Assembly: GCA_003170135.1 (NCBI GenBank)
Contig: PMZR01000098.1
Coordinates: 18,406-82,405, forward strand
Direction of reading: 5' to 3'
Length of the DNA stretch: 64,000 nucleotides
Origin: Acidobacteriota bacterium
GTDB taxonomy: Bacteria > Acidobacteriota > Vicinamibacteria > Vicinamibacterales > Fen-181
This document shows, piece by piece, positions 5,837-61,243 of this stretch (position 1 is the first letter of the stretch; the number at the start of each line of letters is the position of its first letter). The notes beneath the pieces were generated by a model. That model saw nothing but the letters and a program-made list of their open reading frames with translations, was not told the DNA's origin and did no database searches. Position numbers and translations under genes: made by a program.

Positions 5837-5851
5837 AGTCGTTTCTTGTCG

Positions 5852-5883
5852 TCCCGAGTCCGGGGTCCGGAGTCCGGAGTCGC
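5852..5883. repeat. 7-bp-period repeat (GGAGTCC family)
   Basis: tcccgagtccggggtccggagtccggagtcgc, between stop of 5887..6324 and start of rnr. Confidence 0.8.
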
Positions 5884-21213: not shown

Positions 21214-21249
21214 TGGAGTCCGGGGTCCGGAGTCCGGGGTCCGGAGTCG
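21214..21249. repeat. 7-bp-period repeat (GGAGTCC/GGGGTCC family)
   Basis: tggagtccggggtccggagtccggggtccggagtcg, between MacB ATPase stop and permease start. Confidence 0.85.
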
Positions 21250-23118: not shown

Positions 23119-23214
23119 GATCCCTAGTCCTTGGTCCCTAGTCCTTGGTCCCTAGTCCTTGGTCCCTAGTCCTTGGTCCCTAGTCCCTGGTCCCTGGTCC
23201 CTGGTCCTCAGTCC
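23119..23214. repeat. Long 7/14-bp-period repeat (CCCTAGT-CCTTGGT)
   Basis: gatccctagtccttggtccctagtccttggtccctagtccttggtccctag...ccctggtccctggtccctggtcctcagtccc; overlaps folK 3' end. Confidence 0.92.
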
Positions 23215-36736: not shown

Positions 36737-37482
36737 GGTGTGCGGGCCGGGCGAACGGCAAGACGCGCGACGAGGAGGACGGCCACGCCGACGGCCATCC
36801 CGCCCAGCGCGAACCACTGCGCCACCGTCAGGCCCAGCGCGACGCGGATGTTCACGCGGACGAACTCGATGAGGAAGCGTGTCAGGCTGACGAGCAGCAG
36901 GTATCGTCCGAAGACATCCGCATCGCGGACGCCCTGGCGTCGCCACCGCACCAGCAGCCACGTGAAGACGAAGAGCGCGAGCGCCTCGTAGATTTGCGTC
37001 GGATGGACACGGTCGAGCGTGGGCGGGAGACCCTCGGGAAACGCGATGCCCCAGGGCAGGTTTGTCGGGCGTCCATAGTCGTCGCCGACCAGCAGACACC
37101 CGATGCGGCCGACCGCCTGGCCGAGCGTGATGGCCGGCGCCGCCGCAGCCAGCACCGGCATCACCGGCAACCGCTTCCACCGGACGACGACCAGGCCCGC
37201 GACGACGCCGCCGACCAGGCCACCGAACCAGCTCATGCCGCCGCGGCTCAGCAGGGTGTCGCCCAGGCCCTCGCCCAGATGCTCGAGGACGTACAGCAGC
37301 TTGGCGCCGACCAGTCCGCCCAGGACACCGACCAGTGCGGCATCGACGCCTGCAGAGGCATCCAGGTGACTCCGCAGGAGCTCGCGCCTGAGCAGCAGCA
37401 CGCCCAACCCGGCGCCGATGGCCACCATCAGGCCGAAACTCGTAACCTCGTACGAGCCGATGCGGAAGAGGACGGGGTACAT
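36733..37482 (-). CDS. lgt: Prolipoprotein diacylglyceryl transferase
   Basis: GGLVGAKLLYV, SWFGGLVGG, GRIGCLLVGDDYGRPTNLPWGIAFP, HPTQIYEAL. Confidence 0.94.
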   Translation of the reverse strand: MYPVLFRIGSYEVTSFGLMVAIGAGLGVLLLRRELLRSHLDASAGVDAALVGVLGGLVGAKLLYVLEHLGEGLGDTLLSRGGMSWFGGLVGGVVAGLVVVRWKRLPVMPVLAAAAPAITLGQAVGRIGCLLVGDDYGRPTNLPWGIAFPEGLPPTLDRVHPTQIYEALALFVFTWLLVRWRRQGVRDADVFGRYLLLVSLTRFLIEFVRVNIRVALGLTVAQWFALGGMAVGVAVLLVARLAVRPARTP

Positions 37483-37557
37483 GTGGCTGGTGCTGGTGCT
37501 ATGTGCTGGTGCTGGTGCTATGTGCTCGTGCTAGGTGCCTGGTGCTAGGTGCCGGTG
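37483..37557. repeat. GTGCTGG/GTGCTAG-type 6-7 bp period repeat
   Basis: gtggctggtgctggtgctatgtgctggtgctggtgctatgtgctcgtgctaggtgcctggtgctaggtgccggtg between anti-sigma stop and lgt start. Confidence 0.85.
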
Positions 37558-37814
37558 CGGCGCGATGACTCCGCCATCAGTTCGGCGATGCGCGCGCGGG
37601 CCCTGGCGCGTACGTCGGCGGGCAGCCGCCGCTTCCCCGCCTGCTGGCACAGCACGACGGTGCGCCGCAGGCTGTCGGCGAATTCCTCGCAGCACGGGCA
37701 CCGGCGCAGGTGCGTCACGATCGATCGGCGCTCTCGCGCGTCCATCTCGCCGTCGATGTAGCGCGACAGCTCCTCGAGCAGCTCACGGCAATGCGCACCG
37801 TCATGGCGCGTCAT
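37545..37814 (-). CDS. zf-HC2 anti-sigma factor
   Basis: HCRELLEELSRYIDGEMDARERRSIVTHLRRCPCCEEFADSLRR. Confidence 0.87.
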   Translation of the reverse strand: MTRHDGAHCRELLEELSRYIDGEMDARERRSIVTHLRRCPCCEEFADSLRRTVVLCQQAGKRRLPADVRARARARIAELMAESSRRTGT

Positions 37815-44751: not shown

Positions 44752-44871
44752 TAGTTGACAGTCAACCGTTGACAGTCAACCGTTGCAGTCAACCGTTGAC
44801 AGTTGACCGTCGCCGGACGACGGTCGGAACATGCGTTCAACGGTTGACCATCAACTATCACCTATCAACCC
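44752..44871. repeat. GTTGACAGTCAACC 14-bp repeat array with palindromic units
   Basis: gatagttgacagtcaaccgttgacagtcaaccgttgcagtcaaccgttgacagttgacc... then caacggttgaccatcaactatcacctatcaacc, between DUF2892 and DUF302 genes. Confidence 0.88.
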
Positions 44872-48647: not shown

Positions 48648-49847
48648 TCAGACCGTCGGCGTGCTGTCGGTCGCCGGATCGTAGGTGCAGAAGGGCTCCG
48701 CTTCCATGTAGTCGCCGGTTTCCGAGAAGGCCCGCGCGCGGCACCCGGCACAGATGGCCTCGTAGCGGCAGGCGCCGCACTTGCCGAGGTAGGCGGTGGG
48801 CGTGCGCAGGCGCTCGAAGACGGGCGACGAGGCCCAGATCTCCGAGAACGGGCGCTCGCGCGTGCTGCCGGCGCTGACCGGCAGGTACCCGCACGGATAC
48901 ACCTCGCCGACGTTCGAGACGAAGCAGACCGACGTGCCGGCCAGACACCCGCGCGTCATCGTCGACAGCGGCCGTCCGCCGGCCGGATCCGGCGCCGCCT
49001 TCAGCCGGGTGCCGTGCGCGATGAACGGGGTGCTGCGGTCGCCCTGCTTCCGCTCCTCGATGATGCGTTGGGCACGGACGCGGAAGTAGTGCGGCGCGCA
49101 CGTCGCCTTCAGGTCGATGCCGCACGTCTTCGACTGATCGTAGAACCAGTGGAGGACGCGCTCGTATTCGTCGGCCGGGAGCATCTCGCGGTCGGCAATC
49201 GTCACGCCGCAGCCGACGGGCACGAGCATAAAGATGTGCAGCGCGTCGGCGCCGATCGACATGGCGAGATCGAGCAGGCGCGGCAGTTCCTGCACGTTGT
49301 GGCGCGCGACCGTCGAGTTGACCTGGATCGACACGCCCTCGTCTCGCAGGTGCCGCAGGCCCTCGAGCGCGCGGGCGTGCGAGCCGGGCAGGCGCCGGAA
49401 GGCATCGTGCGTCTTTGCGACCGCGCCGTCCAGGCTGACGGCGACGCGCGAGAACCCGGTCGTGCGGATCCGCTGCGCGACGGCGCGATCCACCAGCGTG
49501 CCGTTGGTGGCGAGCGCCATCCGGAAGCCGCGATCGCGGCCGTGCGCGGCGAGGTCGAAGATGTCGGCCCGGTACAGCGGTTCGCCGCCCGAGAGAATGA
49601 GCACCGGCCTGGTGACCTCGGCCAGCTGATCGATCAGGCGGATGCCCTCGTCTGTCGTCAGCTCGCTCTGCGAGCGTTCGGTCTCGGGAATCGCGCGGCA
49701 GTGCTGGCAGCGCAGGTTGCAGGCCTTCGTCGTTTCCCAGAAGACGAGCCGCAGCGGCGGGACGCCGCTGGTCGGGCGCGGCTCGGCGGCATGGCCGTGC
49801 ACGTGCGGGTCGTCGTGTCCCCTACCGTGAAGATTGGGGGCCGTCAT
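48648..49847 (-). CDS. Radical SAM/SPASM protein (NirJ/Ahb-like)
   Basis: WETTKACNLRCQHCRA (CxxxCxxC), LILSGGEPLYR; C-terminal SPASM cysteines CLAGTSVCFVSNVGEVYPCG...CGACRYEAICAGCRARAF. Confidence 0.9.
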   Translation of the reverse strand: MTAPNLHGRGHDDPHVHGHAAEPRPTSGVPPLRLVFWETTKACNLRCQHCRAIPETERSQSELTTDEGIRLIDQLAEVTRPVLILSGGEPLYRADIFDLAAHGRDRGFRMALATNGTLVDRAVAQRIRTTGFSRVAVSLDGAVAKTHDAFRRLPGSHARALEGLRHLRDEGVSIQVNSTVARHNVQELPRLLDLAMSIGADALHIFMLVPVGCGVTIADREMLPADEYERVLHWFYDQSKTCGIDLKATCAPHYFRVRAQRIIEERKQGDRSTPFIAHGTRLKAAPDPAGGRPLSTMTRGCLAGTSVCFVSNVGEVYPCGYLPVSAGSTRERPFSEIWASSPVFERLRTPTAYLGKCGACRYEAICAGCRARAFSETGDYMEAEPFCTYDPATDSTPTV

Positions 49848-49957
49848 GGGTCTCCACCCGGCCGCGCCGACACGCGACGCGACCTCGAATTCTGGTTGGA
49901 CGTCCGGCCCTGCGCCGACGCGCCGGGCCGTCAGATGGTCGATCGGGCCCGCGTGGA

Positions 49958-50197
49958 TTACGCCACTTCGACCAGGATCATACGCGCCACCGACGGTTCA
50001 ACCGCCAGCTCGGTCTGGTCGCACTCGAAGACGAACCCGGGGAACCGCTGCAGCAACCGCACGCTCGCGCCCGGCGTGACGCCAAGCGCTGCCAGGCGGT
50101 CCGCCCGCGCGAGATCGTCGCTCGCCACCCGCACGACAACGCCTCGATCGCCCGGTCGCAGGGAATTCAGTCGGCGAATCACGTCAAAACGACACAC
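49958..50197 (-). CDS. feoA: FeoA domain protein
   Basis: LNSLRPGDRGVVVRVASDDLARADRLAALGVTPGASVRLLQRFPGFVFECDQTELAVEPSVARMILVE. GTG start at 50197 inferred, overlapping feoB end. Confidence 0.88.
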   Translation of the reverse strand: MCRFDVIRRLNSLRPGDRGVVVRVASDDLARADRLAALGVTPGASVRLLQRFPGFVFECDQTELAVEPSVARMILVEVA

Positions 50198-51968
50198 GGA
50201 GGAAGTGAAGGACATAATTGAGCGCAACGCCCGTTGAAAGCGCAACGATGGTGATGAAGGTCAGCATCGTCAGGCCCACCCGGACACCCTGTTCGCGAAT
50301 GATCATCAGCAGGTTGGCGACACACGGAACGAAGAGCGTCATGACCGTCAGCGCGATGACCGCCTGCACGCTCGACAGCGTGCCGGCATGGGCCATCTGG
50401 TACAGACCCGCCGCGCCGTAATCGCGGCGAAGAAACCCCATCACGAAGACCTGGGCCGCGCCTGCCGGCAGGCCCAGCAGGCCCGTGACGACCGGCCGCG
50501 CCACCGCCACGACGAGTTTCAGCGCGCCCGTCCGATCGAGCAGGAACAGCAGCACGGTGCCGATGAGGAAGAGCGGCACCGCTTCGCCCAGGTACCAGCG
50601 CACGCGCATCACCGTCTTGCGCAGCAGGTTGCGCATCGACGGCAGCCGGATGGGCGGTAGCTCCAGGATGAAGTCCGACCGGTCGCCGGAGAGGACGCGC
50701 GCCGCGAGAAATCCGACCAGGAACATCTGCGCGACGACCACGCCAAACAGCGTCAGCAACGCCGCGAACGAGATGCCGCCCAGGATGCCGAGGATCGTGG
50801 CGAGCTGGGCCGAACACGGGATGCCGAGCGCCAGCAGGAGGATGGCAATCAGCCGCTCCTTGCGCGACCCGAGGATCCGCGTCGTCATCGTGGCCATCGT
50901 GTCGCAGCCCAGGCCGAGGACCATCGGCAGGACGGCCTTGCCGTTCAGCCCCATCATCCGGAAGATCCGATCGCAGAAGATCGCCAGCCGCGGGATGTAG
51001 CCGCTGTCCTCGAGCCAGCCGAACATCAGGAAGAAGGTCGTCACCACCGGCAGCACGATCCCGATGGCGTAGGTGAGGCCCATCGTGATGAGGCCGTACT
51101 GGCCGACGAGCAGGTCCCGGACGAACGCAATCGGCACCAAGCGCGTGACCAGCGCAATCGCGGCGGGATTCACGATGCCGGCGAACAGATCGTGCTCGAT
51201 CAGGCGCACCAGCGTCTGGGCGCCGAAGACGCCGACGAAGAGGTACAGCAGGTACAGCACGCCAGCGAGGATCGGCAGGCCGGTCAGCGGCTGCCGCACG
51301 GCACGGCCGATCGCCTCCTGGATCCGCGGCGAGACGTGCGGCCGGATGGCGCGCACGCGCTCGCTGTATTCGTGCGCCCAGGAGGCCGCATCGGAATCGG
51401 CCGGCACCGCGACGACGCTGGCATGGCCGAGCGCGCGCCTGAGGTCGGCCAGGCCGCGGCCCTCGGTGGCCACCGTCTCGACGACCGGCACGCCCAGATC
51501 CGCGCGCAACTGCCGGGCGTCGATGTCGATTCCCCGCGACCGGGCCTCGTCGCTCATGTTCAGCACGAGGACCATCGGCCGGCCGCATCGCGCGATCTGC
51601 CAGGTGAGCATGAGCGCGCGGCGGATGTTGCGCGCGTCGGCCACCTGCACCACGACGTCGGCCTGGCCGCTGGTAATGATGGCCCGCGTGATCTGTTCGT
51701 CCTCGCTCAGCACACCCTCGAGCGCGTTGACGCCCGGGGTGTCGATGAGATCGCAGACCTCGTTGCCGACCAGCGCACGGCCCTGCGTCAGGGCGACCGT
51801 CGTTCCCGGGTAGTTCGACACCACGGCATAACGACCGGTCAGCCGGCCGAACAGGGCGCTCTTGCCCACGTTCGGGTTGCCGACGAGCGCGAGCCGTCGA
51901 GGTCGGGCGCGCAGCGTCAACAGCGGTTCGGAAGAGATGGTAGAAGGAGAACTGCGGGAACGCCGCAT
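50184..51968 (-). CDS. feoB: Ferrous iron transporter FeoB
   Basis: ALVGNPNVGKSALFGRLTGRYAVVSNYPGTTV; DTPGVNAL; membrane Gate motifs (GYIPRLAIFCDR, GLGCDTMATMTTRIL, GIPCSAQLATILGILGG). Confidence 0.95.
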   Translation of the reverse strand: MRRSRSSPSTISSEPLLTLRARPRRLALVGNPNVGKSALFGRLTGRYAVVSNYPGTTVALTQGRALVGNEVCDLIDTPGVNALEGVLSEDEQITRAIITSGQADVVVQVADARNIRRALMLTWQIARCGRPMVLVLNMSDEARSRGIDIDARQLRADLGVPVVETVATEGRGLADLRRALGHASVVAVPADSDAASWAHEYSERVRAIRPHVSPRIQEAIGRAVRQPLTGLPILAGVLYLLYLFVGVFGAQTLVRLIEHDLFAGIVNPAAIALVTRLVPIAFVRDLLVGQYGLITMGLTYAIGIVLPVVTTFFLMFGWLEDSGYIPRLAIFCDRIFRMMGLNGKAVLPMVLGLGCDTMATMTTRILGSRKERLIAILLLALGIPCSAQLATILGILGGISFAALLTLFGVVVAQMFLVGFLAARVLSGDRSDFILELPPIRLPSMRNLLRKTVMRVRWYLGEAVPLFLIGTVLLFLLDRTGALKLVVAVARPVVTGLLGLPAGAAQVFVMGFLRRDYGAAGLYQMAHAGTLSSVQAVIALTVMTLFVPCVANLLMIIREQGVRVGLTMLTFITIVALSTGVALNYVLHFLRVSF

Positions 51969-52005
51969 ATATGAGCTCAAACGCAAACGGAGTGCCACGT
52001 GATTT

Positions 52006-52020
52006 TGCGAATCATTCTCA
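52006..52020 (-). promoter_or_regulatory. Fur-box-like palindrome upstream of feoB
   Basis: TGCGAATcATTCTCA (7-1-7 layout) 38 nt upstream of feoB ATG; matches 12 of 14 arm positions of TGATAATnATTATCA. Confidence 0.7.
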
Positions 52021-52272
52021 AAGTTACGCACAAACTCTGCGCCGGAGTGACGGTTTCCCGCCAAGGTCGGCCGCAGCCGTGCTCCGTGACGAACGCCCCT
52101 GACCTCCGGCCCTCTGGCAACCGATTCAGCAGGAACGTTGGGATTATACACGAACTAGGACTGGAAGTGTCGGGGTTGCGGAAGGCAGGCAGAGGCAAGA
52201 CTGGACGTGGTCCAGTTTCTGTTCGCAGCACCGCGGCTCGACGCGTCGACTTCCCGGAGGCGCCCCGCCAGT

Positions 52273-52548
52273 TCAGCCGACGCGGAGGCGTGGCGCCTGC
52301 TCGGCCCAGCGCGCTCTCATCATCTCGTAGGCGAGCCAGCACAAGGCAGACCCGGCAACGACGCCCAGGGGAAACAGGAAGAACACGAAGATCCCCGAGT
52401 ACGGGTTGCCCCCGCCACCACCGGTTACGAGCATTGCGAGCAGCGCCAGTACGAACAGCACGCTGTCGAAAATCAGCAGGAAGCCGACCACGCCGACTGC
52501 CAGCCAGAAGACGTCGGCGACGCGTGGAGATACGCGAAGAGCGAGCAT
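52273..52548 (-). CDS. Small membrane protein, hypothetical
   Basis: MLALRVSPRVADVFWLAVGVVGFLLIFDSVLFVLALLAMLVTGGGGGNPYSGIFVFFLFPLGVVAGSALCWLAYEMMR; two to three TM helices. Confidence 0.6.
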   Translation of the reverse strand: MLALRVSPRVADVFWLAVGVVGFLLIFDSVLFVLALLAMLVTGGGGGNPYSGIFVFFLFPLGVVAGSALCWLAYEMMRARWAEQAPRLRVG

Positions 52549-52680
52549 CCCTTCCTCCCGGCCATTGAATGTCGTCGGATTTGCCGGGGTATCGCAATCC
52601 GCATGCCGGCGCGTTTGTGGGCGCTTTTCGCCGTTTCACGGGGCGGGCGGAGACCCGTAGCCGGGAAGCCGGCGGTCCGA

Positions 52681-52728
52681 GACCCCGGACCCCGGACTCC
52701 GGACTTCGGACTTCGGACTTCGGACGCG
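52681..52728. repeat. 7-bp-period repeat (GGACTTC family)
   Basis: gaccccggaccccggactccggacttcggacttcggacttcggacgcg, next to stop of the barrel remnant. Confidence 0.85.
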
Positions 52729-52734
52729 TTGTTC

Positions 52735-53170
52735 TCAGAAGATATGCATCATGCGAACCCAGAACGCGTTGGCGGTGTAGGGGCGGTTCCCGTAGCCGAG
52801 CAGGACGATGCCGGGAAGTATGACCTGGTCCTCGATCTGCGAGCCGAGCGCGAAGTCGCTCACCGTGTAGCGTTCGTACGAGTACATGAACCCCGCCGCG
52901 ATGTTGCAGCGCAGGAAGTAGCGCAGGTCCAGCATCAGCGTGTGCCAGCGGTTCAGGATCGGTGGCAACTGCTGCGGGGCGGCCAGTGACGAGCCGACGG
53001 CAAAGGTGTAGGGCGAATCCGCCCGGTTGTTCGTCGATCTCGGCGGCCGCCATGCCGGTGAACGTCTTGATCTTCGTCTTGTCGCCGCCGCCATCGACGT
53101 GCGCCTTGCCAGGGCCGTGACAGGTTTCGCACCCGTGCTGCGCCGCCGTCGCGCACGCACCACGCCACAA
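52735..53170 (-). pseudogene. Collapsed remnant: cytochrome c fragment joined out of frame to MtrB/PioB-like C-terminus
   Basis: Frame 1: HGCETCHGPGKAHVDGGGDKTKIKTFTGMAAAEID (CxxCH). After a frame change near 53025: SPYTFAVGSSLAAPQQLPPILNRWHTLMLDLRYFLRCNIAAGFMYSYERYTVSDFALGSQIEDQVILPGIVLLGYGNRPYTANAFWVRMMHIF*. Confidence 0.72.
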
Positions 53171-53341
53171 CCCGCGTGCGGACGCGGATGTAAACGGCAA
53201 GACGTTGATTATTCGGAGGTTCGAGGCCAGCTCGGCTCGATCACGCGCGCGTCACGCCGCGCCGCACGCGACGGGCGCGGCCCGCGAATTGTCGCGCTCG
53301 GTGGGTTATGCGGGAGGTGAGAAAAGTGGAAGGAAGCGTCC

Positions 53342-53370
53342 AAGGAGAGGCCCCCGCGGGGCCTCTCCTT
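53342..53370 (-). terminator. Perfect 13-bp hairpin just 3' of the MtrB/PioB-like gene
   Basis: aaggagaggcccc-cgc-ggggcctctcctt, 26 nt past the stop at 53396. Confidence 0.75.
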
Positions 53371-53395
53371 CACGCCTGCCGGCAGATGCAAGCAG

Positions 53396-55786
53396 CTAGA
53401 ACCGATAGCTGAGACTGGCGCGGACGATGTTGGCGTTGTAGTTCGGTACCGTCGCGCCGAGGAACAGCGCCCGGTTCGCGCCGGAATCGAGCTGCGGGTA
53501 GATGCTGGCCACGGCGCCCGGCGTGGTCGCATACAGGCTCGCACCCGGCAGCATGTAGGGCGACAGGCCGTCATAGGCCCAGTCGGCCTGGTCGAACTTC
53601 TGCCGCCAGTAGAGGAGGCTGAGCGTCACGTTCTTCTGCACGTGGACGTTGACCCAGGTCTTCCAGATCGTCGTGGCGTTGAAGACCTGCGGATAGTTCA
53701 GGTACGGACCCATGACCGGGAAATTGGTCGATGCCGACGTCGGGAACAACATGTCGCCGCCGGCCTGGCCGCCGGGAACGATCGTGAAGGCCGAGTCGCT
53801 CCGACCCTTCGAATAGTCATAGTCCGACCCGATGTCGAGGCGCTTCGGCACCAGGTTCCACCGGAGGCCGGCGGTATAGGTGTCGACCCGGTCGACGATA
53901 TTGTTGAAGTACTGGTCCGCGGTGTTCGTGGCGACGGGGGTCACGGTGTTCCCGTTGGCGCCGTACCAGAGGTTGGAGTCCATGTGGTACGTCTCGTAGA
54001 TGTACCCGCCGTTCAGGCTGAACTTGTCGGTGAAGGCGTAGACCAGGTCGACACCGTAGTTCCTCATCGTGCTCTTGCTGAGGCCGATGGACGTGTCCGG
54101 GAAGTCGCTGTCCATTCCCTGGACGGAGAAGCTCAACGCGGCCTTGTCGACAGGCGTCAAGGTCAGCACGGCGCTGTAAAGCTTGGAGTTCTGCTTGGCG
54201 ACGTCCTTCATTTCCGCATTGATGTCGAGCGGACCGCCCGTCGCGCCTTCGGCCGCTTCATCGGGGCTTGCCGCGCCGGGAGTGCGCCACAGGCCGGTGT
54301 AGCTGCCGTGGACACTGGCCCAGCTGCCGGTGACGTCCGCGGTCACGCCGACCGTGTTGTCCCCCACGTCCAGGAAGCTGCGGTCCTCGTAGGTCGACTT
54401 CAGGTGGCCGGCATTCACGCCGATCCTCAGACCGCGGACGGGCGTGAAGTGGCCCTCAGCCTTGAACTGGCCGGTGCCATACCCTCGGGCATCCTCGGCG
54501 CTCGTGATGCCGGTGGCACTGTAGCTGGCGCCGCCGTCGCTGTTGACCTGGCTGTGGAACGTGTAGGGCGCCAGCGTCGCGTCTTTCACGTCGAAGCTGC
54601 GATAGAACACGCTGTAGCCGAACTTCGGAATCGGATTGGCGGTGAAGTTCGCCATCAGCAGCGTCTGGTTGAGCCGCGGGTTGACGGTGGCGTACTCGGG
54701 CGTGAGGGTGAACTTGCCGAAGTTCGGATCCGTGGTGGCCAGGTTGAGGTTCGGGTTGGTGGCCTGGGGGATGAGCGTGTAGTCCACCTTCATCTGCATG
54801 CGCGACGCCGTCAGCGTGAGATTGCTGTGCATCGGCAACCGATAGACGCCCGTCAGGTCGAAGCTGATGGCCTTGTTGTCCGGAGCATTCCACAGCCGCG
54901 CCGTCGCGTTGGCGGTCGTGTTGGTCACCGGCGCGGTCCAGAAGAAGTCGGTGTTGTTGAGCCGGACCGGGTTGTCCACCGTGGTGAACGGCACGTCATT
55001 GGTGAACTGACTGTAGGTGAACACGCCGTTGACGACCAACCGGTTCTTGGCGTATTCGACTTCCGCCCGCGTGTCCTGGGTCGTGTAGCTGATCGGGTTC
55101 GCCACTTCGTCGATGCCGGGGCCGGCCGTGAAATCCACCGGCTGGCTGCCGTTGCGGGTTTCGCGCTGATAAGACCCCTTGAAGGTCCAGTTGTCGAACG
55201 GCGTGAGATCGATGCCCACGTCGCCGGTCTTGCGAATGTAGCGCAGGTCGACGGGCTCGGCGCCGTTCATGTAGTCGCGGACCGACCAGAAGCGGTTGTC
55301 GCTGGAGTTGGCCGGCGCCGCCGTTTCGGCCTTCGCGGGCGACCAGATCCGCTGCAGGGCCGTGCGCATACCGTCCGAGAGGTTGAACACGCCGGGCGAC
55401 GACTCGTTGTAGAGCGTCTCGGCCTTGTTCGAGAACCAGCGGGGATTCTGGTTCAAGGACAGGTGGAGGGTCCAGGTCCCCTTCTTCCCGCTCTCGAAGG
55501 CCGCGTACTGGTCGTCGAGCCCGAGCTTGGTGCCGTCGAACTTCATGAAGTAGTTCGAGGCGTTCTTCCAGGCGAAGTTCACGTCGAAGAGGCTGACGCC
55601 CGTCGGGACGGTCTCGTACTGCTGCAGCTTCGAGGAGTCGTTGATTCCCGAGCCGCCCTGGGCGCCGACCGTGGCGCCGCCGGTGATCTGGGGTTCCTTG
55701 ACGTCCTGCGCGCGAACGGGAAGGGCCACCAGGGAGAAGATGATCGCGAGGGCAAAGAGAAGATGAGTTCTGTTCATTCTGTTCAT
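53396..55786 (-). CDS. MtrB/PioB family outer-membrane beta-barrel protein
   Basis: 796 aa, signal peptide, many alternating aromatic strands ('RNYGVDLVYAFTDKFSLNGGYIYETY', 'KNVTLSLLYWRQKFDQADWAYDG'), C-terminal ASLSYRF; immediately downstream of decaheme cytochrome. Confidence 0.87.
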   Translation of the reverse strand: MNRMNRTHLLFALAIIFSLVALPVRAQDVKEPQITGGATVGAQGGSGINDSSKLQQYETVPTGVSLFDVNFAWKNASNYFMKFDGTKLGLDDQYAAFESGKKGTWTLHLSLNQNPRWFSNKAETLYNESSPGVFNLSDGMRTALQRIWSPAKAETAAPANSSDNRFWSVRDYMNGAEPVDLRYIRKTGDVGIDLTPFDNWTFKGSYQRETRNGSQPVDFTAGPGIDEVANPISYTTQDTRAEVEYAKNRLVVNGVFTYSQFTNDVPFTTVDNPVRLNNTDFFWTAPVTNTTANATARLWNAPDNKAISFDLTGVYRLPMHSNLTLTASRMQMKVDYTLIPQATNPNLNLATTDPNFGKFTLTPEYATVNPRLNQTLLMANFTANPIPKFGYSVFYRSFDVKDATLAPYTFHSQVNSDGGASYSATGITSAEDARGYGTGQFKAEGHFTPVRGLRIGVNAGHLKSTYEDRSFLDVGDNTVGVTADVTGSWASVHGSYTGLWRTPGAASPDEAAEGATGGPLDINAEMKDVAKQNSKLYSAVLTLTPVDKAALSFSVQGMDSDFPDTSIGLSKSTMRNYGVDLVYAFTDKFSLNGGYIYETYHMDSNLWYGANGNTVTPVATNTADQYFNNIVDRVDTYTAGLRWNLVPKRLDIGSDYDYSKGRSDSAFTIVPGGQAGGDMLFPTSASTNFPVMGPYLNYPQVFNATTIWKTWVNVHVQKNVTLSLLYWRQKFDQADWAYDGLSPYMLPGASLYATTPGAVASIYPQLDSGANRALFLGATVPNYNANIVRASLSYRF

Positions 55787-55803
55787 GATTCGTCTCCTCT
55801 GCC

Positions 55804-56676
55804 CTAGCGCTTGAACGTGTTGCCACGTGGATGCATGGAGCCGTGAATCATCGGGTGGCAGTTCATGCAGCTCTGGTTGAGGGCATAGCGGTCGCGCGAC
55901 GCGTGCGCATTGCCCATGCCGCCACTGGCGAATCCGTTGTGGCACTGGATGCAGAGGATCGGCTGTTTGACCTTGAGCAGGAAGTCGTTGATCGTGCCGT
56001 GCGCGTCATGGCAGTTCATGCAGTTCTCGCGAACCGGGGCATGTTCCCAGAGGAACGGCCCGCGCTTCTCGGCATGGCACGAGTAACAGTTCTGATTGAC
56101 GGACACCTGCAGCAGCATCCGCGGATACGGCGTGCCGTGCGGATTGTGGCAGCTCGTGCAGGTCATCTTGCCTTCGCGCAGCGGCATGTGGCTGGAGCGC
56201 ATCAGGGCCGCCTTCTTCTGCAGATGGCAGCCGGTGCACAGCTCGAACTGGGGCTTGGCCAGCAGCGCCTTGGGGACCGAGCCCTGCGGATGCGGGTCGT
56301 GGCAGGTGATGCAGGACACGTTGCGGCCATCGTGCATCGAACCGGCCCAGTGCTTCTGTGCGCCCTTGTCGTGACACGTCAGGCAGACGGCCGAGGCATC
56401 GGCGGCCGACAGGGCCTTGAAGTTCCTCATCGTGCCCTTGCCGCCCCCGGCCGCCACGTGCGCCTTGCTGTCGCCGTGACACCCCTCGCAGCCTTTCGCG
56501 CTTTCGGCGTGCGGCGTTCCCTTGAACGCGTTGACCGTATCCGTGTGGCAGTCAACGCACACCGCCGCCCCCGACTGGGGTGCTGCCTGGGGCTGTGCCG
56601 CCGACACCGGCGCCACGCCCACCAACAGGACCAGCCCGGTCAACGGGGCCAGCAGTAAAGAGAGCTTCTTACCCAT
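55804..56676 (-). CDS. Decaheme c-type cytochrome (DmsE/MtrA-like)
   Basis: Signal peptide and ten CxxCH motifs counted (CVDCH, CEGCH, CLTCH, CITCH, CTGCH, CTSCH, CYSCH, CMNCH, CIQCH, CMNCH). Confidence 0.93.
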   Translation of the reverse strand: MGKKLSLLLAPLTGLVLLVGVAPVSAAQPQAAPQSGAAVCVDCHTDTVNAFKGTPHAESAKGCEGCHGDSKAHVAAGGGKGTMRNFKALSAADASAVCLTCHDKGAQKHWAGSMHDGRNVSCITCHDPHPQGSVPKALLAKPQFELCTGCHLQKKAALMRSSHMPLREGKMTCTSCHNPHGTPYPRMLLQVSVNQNCYSCHAEKRGPFLWEHAPVRENCMNCHDAHGTINDFLLKVKQPILCIQCHNGFASGGMGNAHASRDRYALNQSCMNCHPMIHGSMHPRGNTFKR

Positions 56677-57243
56677 TCCGTCCCTCCATGAAGAAACGCT
56701 GCTAACGCAAGACCTGCGAACGAATGCGAGAAAACCGCTGCTGCCGGGACGCACTCCGCGGGTGTATCTGTCCGCGACCAGGGGCGACCGTGTTCACGGG
56801 GTCTCGAAATGAACTGGAAAGCGTCGGCCTTTCGGAAGACGCAACGCCGTCGGAGCGGGCTGCAAGCCGGGTGCCCGGGGTGCGGGTGACCAGGCTGACG
56901 TTGTGAAATTCTGCACAAGCGAAAGATCGCGAGGAAATTACAGCGCTGGGCTAGCTGCAATTTTCAACAGTTCGCACGGATTATTGGAGATCCGAGGTGT
57001 TCCTACCGGATTTTCGGCGGTGCCGCCATGGTTCCGGCACTGCTGACAATTCGGCAGATGCCCGGCAGAAGCCGCACCGCGATTTGGACTTGGAACGCGA
57101 GCGTGGGAAATACCCGCCATGACAACGTCTGAACCGAGGGCGCCCGGTGCCCGAGCGAGGAGCGGGCCCAACCTCAGCGTCTGGCCCAACTTCCCGACCG
57201 CGCCTTCGACTCGCTGCCCTCGCTCCCGGCAGACGACCAACGA

Positions 57244-57300
57244 CTAACGACCCCGACCAACAACCAACAACCAACAACCAACAACCAACAACCAACGACT
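57244..57300. repeat. 7-bp-period repeat (AACAACC)
   Basis: ctaacgaccccgaccaacaaccaacaaccaacaaccaacaaccaacaaccaacgact, directly abutting the stop of the NapC/NirT-like gene. Confidence 0.92.
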
Positions 57301-57301
57301 C

Positions 57302-58684
57302 CTACCGCGCGCCTTCCAGCATCTGGTGACACAGTTCGCAATCCTGCGGGATGGTCTTGCCGTCCTTGGTCGAGTGGTTCTCGTCGTGGCACCGGAAGCA
57401 GCCGGGGAAATCCGTGTGCCCGATGTTGTTCGCGTAGGTCCCCCACGACACGTTCATCGTCGGGAAGACGTTACGCCGGTACAGGTTCTGCGCGATGCCG
57501 ATCGCCTCGTTCAGCTTCGGCTCGAAGCCCTGGTACTGCTGCGCGTACTGGCCGCGGTAGAACTCGCGCAGGCTGCGCGCGATCGCCTCGGCCGCCGCGT
57601 CCTGGGTCTGGTACTTCTGCTTCAGCGCGGCAACCATCTGGCGCCTGATGAACGGCAGCCCCTTGTCGACGCGTTCGAGACCGATGGCCTCGTCCACCGC
57701 CGCTTCGGCGGTGGCCGTGAACGGATGGCTCGGGCGGTTGTGGCAGTCCATGCAATCCATCTGGCGCGGGGCGACGCCGGATAGTTGCGCGTCGCTGACG
57801 CCCGGCGCGCGGTACTCCCGCGTCTGGCCGTGCGGTCCCTCCACGGTCACCTTCGCGATCGTCTGGCGTTTCGGATCGGTGGTCCAGTACCGGATCCGCG
57901 TCGACGGCGCCATGTGCCAGTGGATGCCCGTGGCGGTGCCGTACTTCTCGCTTCCGCCGCCCACGTGCACACGCATCGTCGTCGTCGTCTCGGTGTTGGC
58001 CTCGTCGTCGGCCACGTCGTGGAACGTGACGATCTTGTCGCCGGTGAACTTCTCCGGCCAGTGGCACTCCTCGCACGTTTCGCGCGCGGGTCGCAGGTTC
58101 GTGACCGGCGACGGGATCGGCCGCGGATAGGTGTTGAGCACGACCGCGAACACCTGGCGCGTGCCGGACAGCTTCGAGCGCACGAACCACGGCGCGCCGG
58201 GACCGATGTGGCACTGCACGCAGGCCACGCGCGCGTGCGGCCCGTTCTGGTAGGCGGTGAACTCCGGGTGCATGACGCTGTGGCAGACCTGGCCGCAGAA
58301 GCCGACCGAGTCCATGTACTCGATGCCGCGATAGGCGGCGAGCGACAGCACGACGATGTTCACGGCGGTGGCGGCGAACACGAAGAAGGCGACGGTGCGC
58401 TGCCACGGTTCGTTCAGGTCGATCCGCGGCCACTGCGCCAGGGGCCGTCCGAGCCGCTCGCGCCGGCGTCGCCGGTACACGCCGAGCGGCATGAGCAGCA
58501 GGCCGAAGACGAAGATGCCGGGCAGCACGAGGAAGAAGACGATGCCGAGGTACGGGTTCGAGAAGAGGCTGAACAGATCGGCGAAGAAGAAGATGAGGAA
58601 CAGGAGCGCGCTGACGGCGCTCAGCCACATGCCGAAGAGCGAGAGGGGATGGCGGAACACCGCGACGATCGGTTTGGCGGGCAT
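57302..58684 (-). CDS. NapC/NirT-like inner-membrane multiheme cytochrome c with three N-terminal TM helices
   Basis: Three hydrophobic segments, then CGQVCH (CxxxCH), CVQCH, CEECH, CMDCH, CFRCH, CELCH. Confidence 0.9.
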   Translation of the reverse strand: MPAKPIVAVFRHPLSLFGMWLSAVSALLFLIFFFADLFSLFSNPYLGIVFFLVLPGIFVFGLLLMPLGVYRRRRRERLGRPLAQWPRIDLNEPWQRTVAFFVFAATAVNIVVLSLAAYRGIEYMDSVGFCGQVCHSVMHPEFTAYQNGPHARVACVQCHIGPGAPWFVRSKLSGTRQVFAVVLNTYPRPIPSPVTNLRPARETCEECHWPEKFTGDKIVTFHDVADDEANTETTTTMRVHVGGGSEKYGTATGIHWHMAPSTRIRYWTTDPKRQTIAKVTVEGPHGQTREYRAPGVSDAQLSGVAPRQMDCMDCHNRPSHPFTATAEAAVDEAIGLERVDKGLPFIRRQMVAALKQKYQTQDAAAEAIARSLREFYRGQYAQQYQGFEPKLNEAIGIAQNLYRRNVFPTMNVSWGTYANNIGHTDFPGCFRCHDENHSTKDGKTIPQDCELCHQMLEGAR

Positions 58685-58839
58685 AGGCGGCCTCGTGTGA
58701 GTTCCCGGCGCGCTCGCCTGGATGGCCCGCCTCGGGATCTCGACGAGGACGAGCGCGCGCGGGCGGACAAATCCTGGGGAGTGTACATCAACCTGCCGTC
58801 ACCCGCGCGCGGCAATCGGGGATGTCGGGAGCGTCGGCA

Positions 58840-59679
58840 TCAGGACAGAAAGGCGTAGAGGATCAGGACGACCAGCGTCAGGCCCACCGCCACGGCCACC
58901 GTGCCGATCGTGCGCCCGAGCGGCAGCACCCACGGCTTGGGCGGCTCCACGCGGAGCCGGCCGAGCGCGTGCTCGCGCTGCAGGCGCTCGAATTCATCGG
59001 GCCGCTCCGCGCGCAGTTCCTCGTCGGACACGCGGCCGGTGAAGATCACCGTGTCCATCGGAAACTTCTCGGGCCGGAGGTGGCTGTTGAAGAAGTGAAT
59101 CGTGAAGATGAAGCCGACCGCGAGCAGCGCCTCTTCGCCGTGCACCAGCATCGCCAAATTGAAGAAGTACCCGGGCAGCAGGCGCGAGAAGAACATCGGG
59201 AACCACAGCATCAGCCCCGAGAAGCCGATGATGCCCATCCCCCAGAAGACCGCCCAGTAGTCGAACTTCTCCCAGTAGGTAAAGTGATCGAAGCGTGGGT
59301 GCGGGCCGAGGCCGAGGAACCAGCGCAGGTGGGCGAGCATCTCGACGACGTCGCGCGGTTGCGGCGTCATCGAGGCGGGCCCCCAGAGGATGTACAGCTC
59401 CTTCTTCACGAAGAGCCGGTGCAGCAGGCGGAACACGTGCGCGCAGAAGACGCTGATGAGCAGGACCGCCAGCGTGCGGTGCACGAGGCCGGCGGCGTGA
59501 AAGCCGCCGAACACGCGCGCCAGCGTGCCGGCCCACGGCGCCTCGCTGAACAGCAGCGGCAGGCCCGTGAGCGCCAGGCCGAGGAAGCTGACCATCAACA
59601 GGCCGTGCAGGATCCGGTGGTAGCGATCGAATCGCAGATACTGCAGCCGGCTCTCGGGCGTCGGGTGGCCGCTACTCAT
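58840..59679 (-). CDS. Cytochrome b (FDH-gamma/b561-like)
   Basis: [84 protein letters not shown]; His-rich TM helices. Confidence 0.9.
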
Positions 59680-60976
59680 CGTTCTTCTCCGCCGTCGCAT
59701 CCGGCTCGGGCGCCGGCTTGGGGACCGCGGGCTTGCCCGGGCCCTTCTTCGCGCGGACCGATCGCGCGAACCAGAGGCTCGTGTGGACGCCGAAGAACGC
59801 GAACACGAAGATGAGCAGCGAACTCATGAACCGCGCGGCGTAATAGAGCGCCGGGTTGCGCGCCTTGTTGGACTTGTCGGCGTGCGGGTCGTAGCGCGCG
59901 AACTGCGCCGTCGCCCCCGCATGGCACCGGCTGCAGGTGGCGACGATCCGCCCCGGCGAGATGGTCGAGCGCGGATCGCCCTTCGGGAAGATCTCGTGCG
60001 CGCCGTGGCAATCGGCGCACGCCGCGGTCCGGACGAAGCCGAGCGCGGTCACCTGGCCATGGAACGTGTCGCGATAGGTCCTGATCGACTCGGCGTGGCA
60101 GCGGCCGCACTCCCGCAGCACCTGCAGGTGCCAGCTGTCCGACTCCACGCGCTGGATCTGGTGCGCGGTGTGACAGGTGCTGCAGACGGGCGCGAACGTG
60201 TTCCCGTCGCGCATCGCCTTGCCGTGAATCCCGTCCTCGTAGCGGTGCTGGACGCCTTCGTGACATTTCCCGCACGTGGCCGGGATGCTGGTGCGGAAGA
60301 TGCGGCTGCCGGCGTCGGTCTTGCGGCGCACGTCGTGCGAGCCGTGGCAATCGGTGCAGGCGGGCGCCACCATCAGGCCGCCCTTGGCGAGCGCGCGCCC
60401 GTGGATGCTGTCCTGGAACATCTGCACGACGTTGCCGATCTTGATGCCGCCGCGCTTGATGATGTCCGCGTTGCCGTGGCAGGCGCCGCACGTGCCGGGC
60501 AGGTTCAGGTGGTAGGTCCGCGATTCCGGATCGGCGGCGGGCCGGATGTCGTGGGTGCCGTGACAGTCCCGGCACGACGCCGCGACGCTGGTCTGCGGCG
60601 CGGCCCGGCGCGCCTCGGCGTGCACGCTCTGCTCGTACTGCGCCGCGGGCGCTTCATGGCACGCCGCGCAGTTCACCCGCGCGAGTTTCTCCGGGTGCGG
60701 CAGGTCCGCCACCGCCACGTCCGTGTGGCAGTCGACGCACCCAATCCCCGACTGTCCGTGGATGGAACCGGCAAACACGCCCGGCGCGACGGCCGGGCCG
60801 GCGGCGCCGTCACCGTGGCAGGCCAGGCAGTCGTCGTTCGCATGACGTTGCGGCGCCGCCGCGGCGGCGCCCGCCTTCGGCCTGGGCGCCCTTGGCGCCG
60901 CGGATTGCGCGGCGAGCGGAACCGATGACAACGCGGCGAGCAACAGCGTGGCGAGAATGCGCAAAGCGACCTTCAT
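59672..60976 (-). CDS. 11-heme c-type cytochrome with C-terminal TM anchor
   Basis: Signal peptide; eleven CxxCH motifs counted (CLACH, CVDCH, CAACH, CRDCH, CGACH, CTDCH, CGKCH, CSTCH, CGRCH, CADCH, CSRCH); C-terminal TM FMSSLLIFVFAFFGVHTSLWFARSV. Confidence 0.93.
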   Translation of the reverse strand: MKVALRILATLLLAALSSVPLAAQSAAPRAPRPKAGAAAAAPQRHANDDCLACHGDGAAGPAVAPGVFAGSIHGQSGIGCVDCHTDVAVADLPHPEKLARVNCAACHEAPAAQYEQSVHAEARRAAPQTSVAASCRDCHGTHDIRPAADPESRTYHLNLPGTCGACHGNADIIKRGGIKIGNVVQMFQDSIHGRALAKGGLMVAPACTDCHGSHDVRRKTDAGSRIFRTSIPATCGKCHEGVQHRYEDGIHGKAMRDGNTFAPVCSTCHTAHQIQRVESDSWHLQVLRECGRCHAESIRTYRDTFHGQVTALGFVRTAACADCHGAHEIFPKGDPRSTISPGRIVATCSRCHAGATAQFARYDPHADKSNKARNPALYYAARFMSSLLIFVFAFFGVHTSLWFARSVRAKKGPGKPAVPKPAPEPDATAEKNDE

Positions 60977-61188
60977 CCGCGCGGTCGCCCGTCGCAATCG
61001 GCTTCCGTCCACCCGTGACGCGGTTCCCACCGCCGGCACCGCTCGCATTGAGTGCGGTCGGAAACCGGGCGGGCCTCGTCGGCCAGGCAGGCCCATTGCG
61101 CCAGCCACTCGTTCACCCACATCGGCGCGGGGGTGGCCGGTCGATACTCGCTCCATCGACAGGTCCACGGCATGCGCTCGGTGTTCAT
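60973..61188 (-). CDS. Trp/Cys-rich small protein (71 aa), ATGA-coupled to 11-heme cytochrome
   Basis: MNTERMPWTCRWSEYRPATPAPMWVNEWLAQWACLADEARPVSDRTQCERCRRWEPRHGWTEADCDGRPRG*; upstream ggggaaggaacgagt-ATG gives a good RBS; stop overlaps next ATG. Confidence 0.7.
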   Translation of the reverse strand: MNTERMPWTCRWSEYRPATPAPMWVNEWLAQWACLADEARPVSDRTQCERCRRWEPRHGWTEADCDGRPRG

Positions 61189-61210
61189 ACTCGTTCCTTC
61201 CCCTGTACGG

Positions 61211-61243
61211 CAACAGGCCCTCGACCTCGTCGAGGACCTGTTG
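61211..61243 (-). promoter_or_regulatory. Leader hairpin upstream of the small protein/cytochrome operon
   Basis: caacagg-c-cctcgac-ctc-gtcgagg-a-cctgttg: 15-position stem with one mismatch, 23 nt upstream of ATG at 61188. Confidence 0.55.

Follow-up and report, generated by a model that had tools for sequence, protein, structure and literature searches.

Known porin-cytochrome pairs and the present locus

The closest described systems are the MtrAB, DmsEF and PioAB pairs, and the structure of MtrAB serves as family background for the architecture of such conduits (available text of PMC7198977). In Geobacter, adjacent porin-cytochrome clusters share less than 64% identity and are too different to be duplicates (PMC4245776), and the available text of a survey of mtrCAB documents transfer between lineages, duplication and loss of mtr genes (PMC8805035). 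Candidate mtrA and mtrB genes were already known in Acidobacteria (PMC5900883).

The window considered here is a stretch of 64,000 nucleotides, part of contig C54 in a 141-contig, 5.8 Mb acidobacterial assembly, and carries on its minus strand an intact decaheme cytochrome gene, then an intact outer-membrane barrel gene, and then the remnant of a second such pair (Table 1). Both pieces of the remnant and both intact neighbouring genes match the families of the MtrAB, DmsEF and PioAB pairs (TIGR03508, PF11854); unlike those pairs, the remnant keeps 39 cytochrome codons and 97 barrel codons, out of frame with each other, and makes no working conduit. As in Geobacter (PMC4245776), the neighbouring pairs are not duplicates of one another, although in Geobacter both are listed as gene clusters, whereas in this locus only a stump is left of one pair and the two clades differ in taxonomic range. 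Loss and probable transfer of mtr-type genes are shared with the mtrCAB survey, the acidobacterial matches of which belong, in its available text, to Acidobacteriia; that text contains neither the string 'pseudogen' nor a feoB-linked displaced pair (PMC8805035). Duplication, transfer and loss of these genes are already known; the stump adds a further case of such an event and is an ordinary pseudogene.

Table 1. Features of the remnant and of the genes around it (positions are those of the window).
Feature	Coordinates	Strand	Description	Evidence
Cytochrome piece	53033..53149	(-)	39-codon stretch with the second CxxCH of a DmsE/MtrA-type decaheme cytochrome	Three-frame translation, homology
Barrel piece	52735..53028	(-)	C-terminal end of an MtrB/PioB-type outer-membrane barrel: 97 codons plus the stop	PF11854, relatives
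Deletion junction	53022..53034	(-)	Frame switch; 2.39-2.75 kb absent relative to intact pairs	Translation, gap comparison
Second, 5' breakpoint	53145..53155	(-)	End of cytochrome homology; first haem site and signal peptide absent	Profile search
Intact barrel	53396..55786	(-)	MtrB/PioB barrel, 796 aa, of another clade than the remnant	PF11854 222.7 bits; start codon, length; tree
Intact cytochrome	55804..56754	(-)	DmsE-family decaheme cytochrome; start may be an internal ATG near 56680	TIGR03508 248.6 bits, above cut-off; ten CxxCH
NrfH-like gene	57302..58684	(-)	NrfH/NapC-like multihaem quinol-side cytochrome	PF03264; TIGR03153 sub-threshold; syntenic in relatives, 62-65%
FeoB	50184..52151	(-)	Ferrous iron importer, gene downstream of the pair in relatives; true start probably inside the ORF	TIGR00437 374 bits; syntenic, 70-72%

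Anatomy of the remnant

The remnant extends over about 52735-53149 and starts about 250 nt beyond the intact barrel. Its cytochrome piece reads TAAQHGCETCHGPGKAHVDGGGDKTKIKTFTGMAAAEID in one minus-strand frame from 53149 to 53033, whereas the barrel piece, NRADSPYTFAVGSS through GNRPYTANAFWVRMMHIF and the stop codon, lies in a different minus-strand frame that ends at 52735; the CETCHGPGKAHVDGGGDKTKIKTF segment belongs to the cytochrome part and is likewise in another frame than the barrel end. The first-pass annotation had described a CxxCH fragment joined out of frame to a barrel C-terminus, with the frames switching near 53020-53035, and three-frame translation and homology bear this out, placing the change of frame at GACGA/ACAACCGGG (plus strand, about 53022-53034). 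The large internal deletion that it had proposed for a cytochrome-barrel pair is equally apparent from the relatives, in which the same two points lie 2386-2749 nt apart in 14 intact pairs. A second truncation, near 53149, had escaped that annotation. Cytochrome homology begins there abruptly, just before the second CxxCH, and neither the first haem site nor a signal peptide was found upstream of 53149 in any frame searched, so that both are missing as well. The 250 nt upstream of the cytochrome piece have no homologue in the fetched loci except for a 32-nt match (E 0.005). The simplest account would be a single deletion of ~2.5 kb across both genes, the 5' part of the cytochrome gene having been lost in a separate event. 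The remnant cannot give a conduit, since it has kept one of the ten haem sites and a short end of the barrel and lacks a signal peptide.

Third-position GC is 0.90 and 0.91 in the two pieces, equal to that of the intact genes (mean 0.92, sd 0.03 in 97-codon windows), and intergenic GC is 0.67. This equality faintly suggests, on the basis of few codons, that the gene died recently.

Family membership of the two pieces

The barrel piece matches positions 551-631 of the 635 in the Pfam family MtrB_PioB (PF11854, E 3e-7), a match that covers the C-terminal end and thus falls short of a whole barrel, and it also matches TIGR03509 (E 6e-5). Against the intact barrels of relatives it shows 46-49% identity (best E 8e-25) and aligns through to their ends, as expected of a family-typical C-terminus. 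A lack of similarity to MtrB/PioB C-termini had been named in the first-pass annotation as one finding that would refute it, and the barrel piece does show this similarity. Over 39 aa, the cytochrome piece shares 64% identity with a 10-haem cytochrome (G017:C22, E 4e-15), and it reaches 64-75% over 36-39 aa among decaheme cytochromes. A profile built from 17 relatives gave one strong match, which coincides exactly with this piece (E 7e-18), and around the second haem site identity is up to 66% over 41 columns. It holds one CxxCH in 39 codons, compared with ten over about 260-320 aa in the DmsE family, and is a fragment derived from a DmsE-family decaheme gene rather than itself a member of the family. 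To judge from these alignments, neither piece is a chance match.

Gene order around feoB

In two genomes of the same family (G003 and G004) the order of genes is multihaem cytochrome, cytochrome b, NrfH-like cytochrome, porin-cytochrome pair, FeoB, FeoA and radical SAM protein, and a third (G005) has the same order up to FeoB, where its contig ends. A pair lies directly before FeoB in G017 and G027, and two tandem pairs do so in G008 (contig C174). The flanking genes in the window match those of the same family at 61-77% identity, and the divergent intact pair, followed by the remnant, stands between the NrfH-like gene and FeoB; the remnant therefore holds the feoB-adjacent slot and shares its neighbourhood, from NrfH-like gene to FeoB, with the feoB-adjacent pairs of G003, G004 and G005.

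A decaheme cytochrome and a barrel beside FeoB/FeoA were observed in several families of the order (L033, L034, L036, L037, L027, L028 and window positions 48648-61213), often together with a heme-b-synthase-like radical SAM protein, an NrfH-like cytochrome, cytochrome b and a multihaem cytochrome. To judge from this shared neighbourhood, ferrous iron uptake and extracellular electron transfer may be linked. From the families of its two proteins, the intact pair of the window would place a cytochrome within a barrel as a conduit for electrons through the outer membrane, with the upstream-encoded NrfH-like cytochrome as its probable electron donor.

Some smaller features lie close to the remnant. 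Just downstream of the stop codon of the intact barrel is a near-perfect inverted repeat of 29 nt (53342-53370, 90% over 29 nt), which was not reported by a scan for T-run terminators and is possibly the barrel gene's transcription terminator or a processing hairpin. A membrane-protein-like ORF of 91 aa (52273-52548) separates the remnant from FeoB; no homologue of it was found in the fetched feoB-adjacent loci, and a weak one lies near another pair in G038:C22 (40% over 58 aa).

Phylogenetic placement of the remnant and the intact pair

Trees built from concatenated pairs put the remnant inside the resident clade, together with the feoB-adjacent pairs of the order (support 0.985-0.99), and the intact pair groups with those of G271, G255, G279 and G337 (support 1.0), genomes of other classes that have only the phylum in common with that of the window. 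Supports were taken from FastTree, and topologies were compared by the AU test with 5000 resamplings, whose p-values are rough. When each is given its own tree, the two short pieces (41 and 97 residues) come out at slightly different positions. The AU test rejected a strictly sister relationship between the remnant and the feoB-adjacent pairs of the same family, which belong to a sister genus (p-AU 0.0007-0.005), and allowed deeper positions within the resident clade; simple orthology with the sister genus's pairs is thus not established.

The barrel of the intact pair finds its best match among 162 genomes of the order at 106 bits, as against 404 bits and 41% identity to the barrel of G271, from another class, beside which lies a cytochrome 61% identical to the intact cytochrome. 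The weakness of the best match within the order, set against the match in G271 and the conserved flanks, suggests that the intact pair was probably acquired horizontally.

Origin of the remnant

The stump is very probably a pseudogene of a porin-cytochrome pair of the resident clade, which includes the feoB-adjacent pairs, lost by deletion beside a divergent pair. A deletion of about 2.4-2.75 kb would have fused the region just past the second haem site, in a different frame, to the final 97 barrel codons, and the start of the cytochrome gene would have been lost as well. The intact pair would have been inserted by horizontal transfer, with the NrfH-like gene on one side and the resident pair on the other, and would have taken over electron transfer across the outer membrane, the redundant resident pair then being lost by deletion. 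Such a displacement, comprising transfer, takeover and loss, is on balance slightly favoured; that a resident, iron-uptake-linked conduit was displaced in place by one from another class, with the stump as the record of the swap, is an evenly poised proposition.

A different history, possible but less probable, is that two pairs of resident type once stood in tandem, that the remnant derives from one or both of them, and that the divergent intact pair represents an old paralogue rather than a transfer. The two tandem pairs before FeoB in G008:C174 offer a precedent, a position of the remnant at the base of the G008-type group is allowed (p-AU 0.34), and the slightly different placements of the two pieces would fit this history; against it, a close relative of the intact pair is absent from the 162 genomes of the order and present in another class, although the same picture could arise if an ancient paralogue had been lost elsewhere in the order. 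The remnant had also been read in the first-pass annotation as a tandem copy of the adjacent pair. That it is the decayed product of a recent tandem duplication is very improbable, even though the stump directly follows that pair and agrees with it in orientation and gene order. Identity to the adjacent barrel is 20% for the barrel piece, as against up to 47% to barrels of another clade; the corresponding values for the cytochrome piece are 42% and 66%, and placement of the remnant as sister to its neighbour is rejected (delta lnL 83, p-AU 1.7e-4), so that a recent duplicate was discarded as a candidate on both identities and topology.

Instead of a deletion there might be an assembly error, in which reads from an intact pair of the same strain or of one living alongside it were misjoined, and the fragmentation of the assembly into 141 contigs and its estimated contamination of 5.56% lend this some plausibility. 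Such an artefact is nonetheless unlikely, because neither piece has a second copy elsewhere in the assembly, and searches of the assembly for the missing middle or an intact second copy of the pair found none; there are moreover two separate breakpoints, both flanks are collinear with the same family, and the sole repeat common to the stretch and the intact pair is 71% identical, too divergent for collapse. Least credible is the production of a functional small protein from the fused stretch. The barrel codons do form an open frame whose last residue is aromatic, as is typical of outer-membrane proteins, and third-position GC is still coding-like, but open frames are common at about 67% GC, the N-terminal part would be an out-of-frame reading of the cytochrome with no visible signal peptide, about an eighth of the barrel is left, and no promoter-like site was found. 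A candidate for a second stump, a 140-aa barrel frame in G073, proved to be a contig end.

If confirmed, displacement of the resident pair in place would be of more interest than the stump. Outer-membrane conduits would then appear as interchangeable modules beside a fixed inner chain (NrfH-like cytochrome, cytochrome b and multihaem protein) and FeoAB, and the locus would be a natural record of a conduit swap that left the ferrous iron importer and the genes for inner electron transfer in place. It would also bear on the prediction of extracellular electron transfer from gene content in Acidobacteriota. The locus also cautions against taking every short multihaem or barrel ORF of a metagenome bin for a conduit.

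Repeats in the window

Arrays of the (GGACTYC)n type of heptamer occur at 52676-52725, an array whose position was checked and is intergenic, and at 2324-2377, 5851-5881 and 21215-21248. A 23-base pattern of the heptamer has 82 exact matches in the genome, compared with one for a reversed control pattern, and none in six other acidobacterial genomes; the arrays look like a genome-specific dispersed heptad repeat. Tandem arrays with other units, of 7, 14, 13 and 19 bases, are present at 23121-23207, 37481-37558, 44753-44810 and 57233-57299, and one of these sits between the NrfH-like gene and the intact cytochrome.
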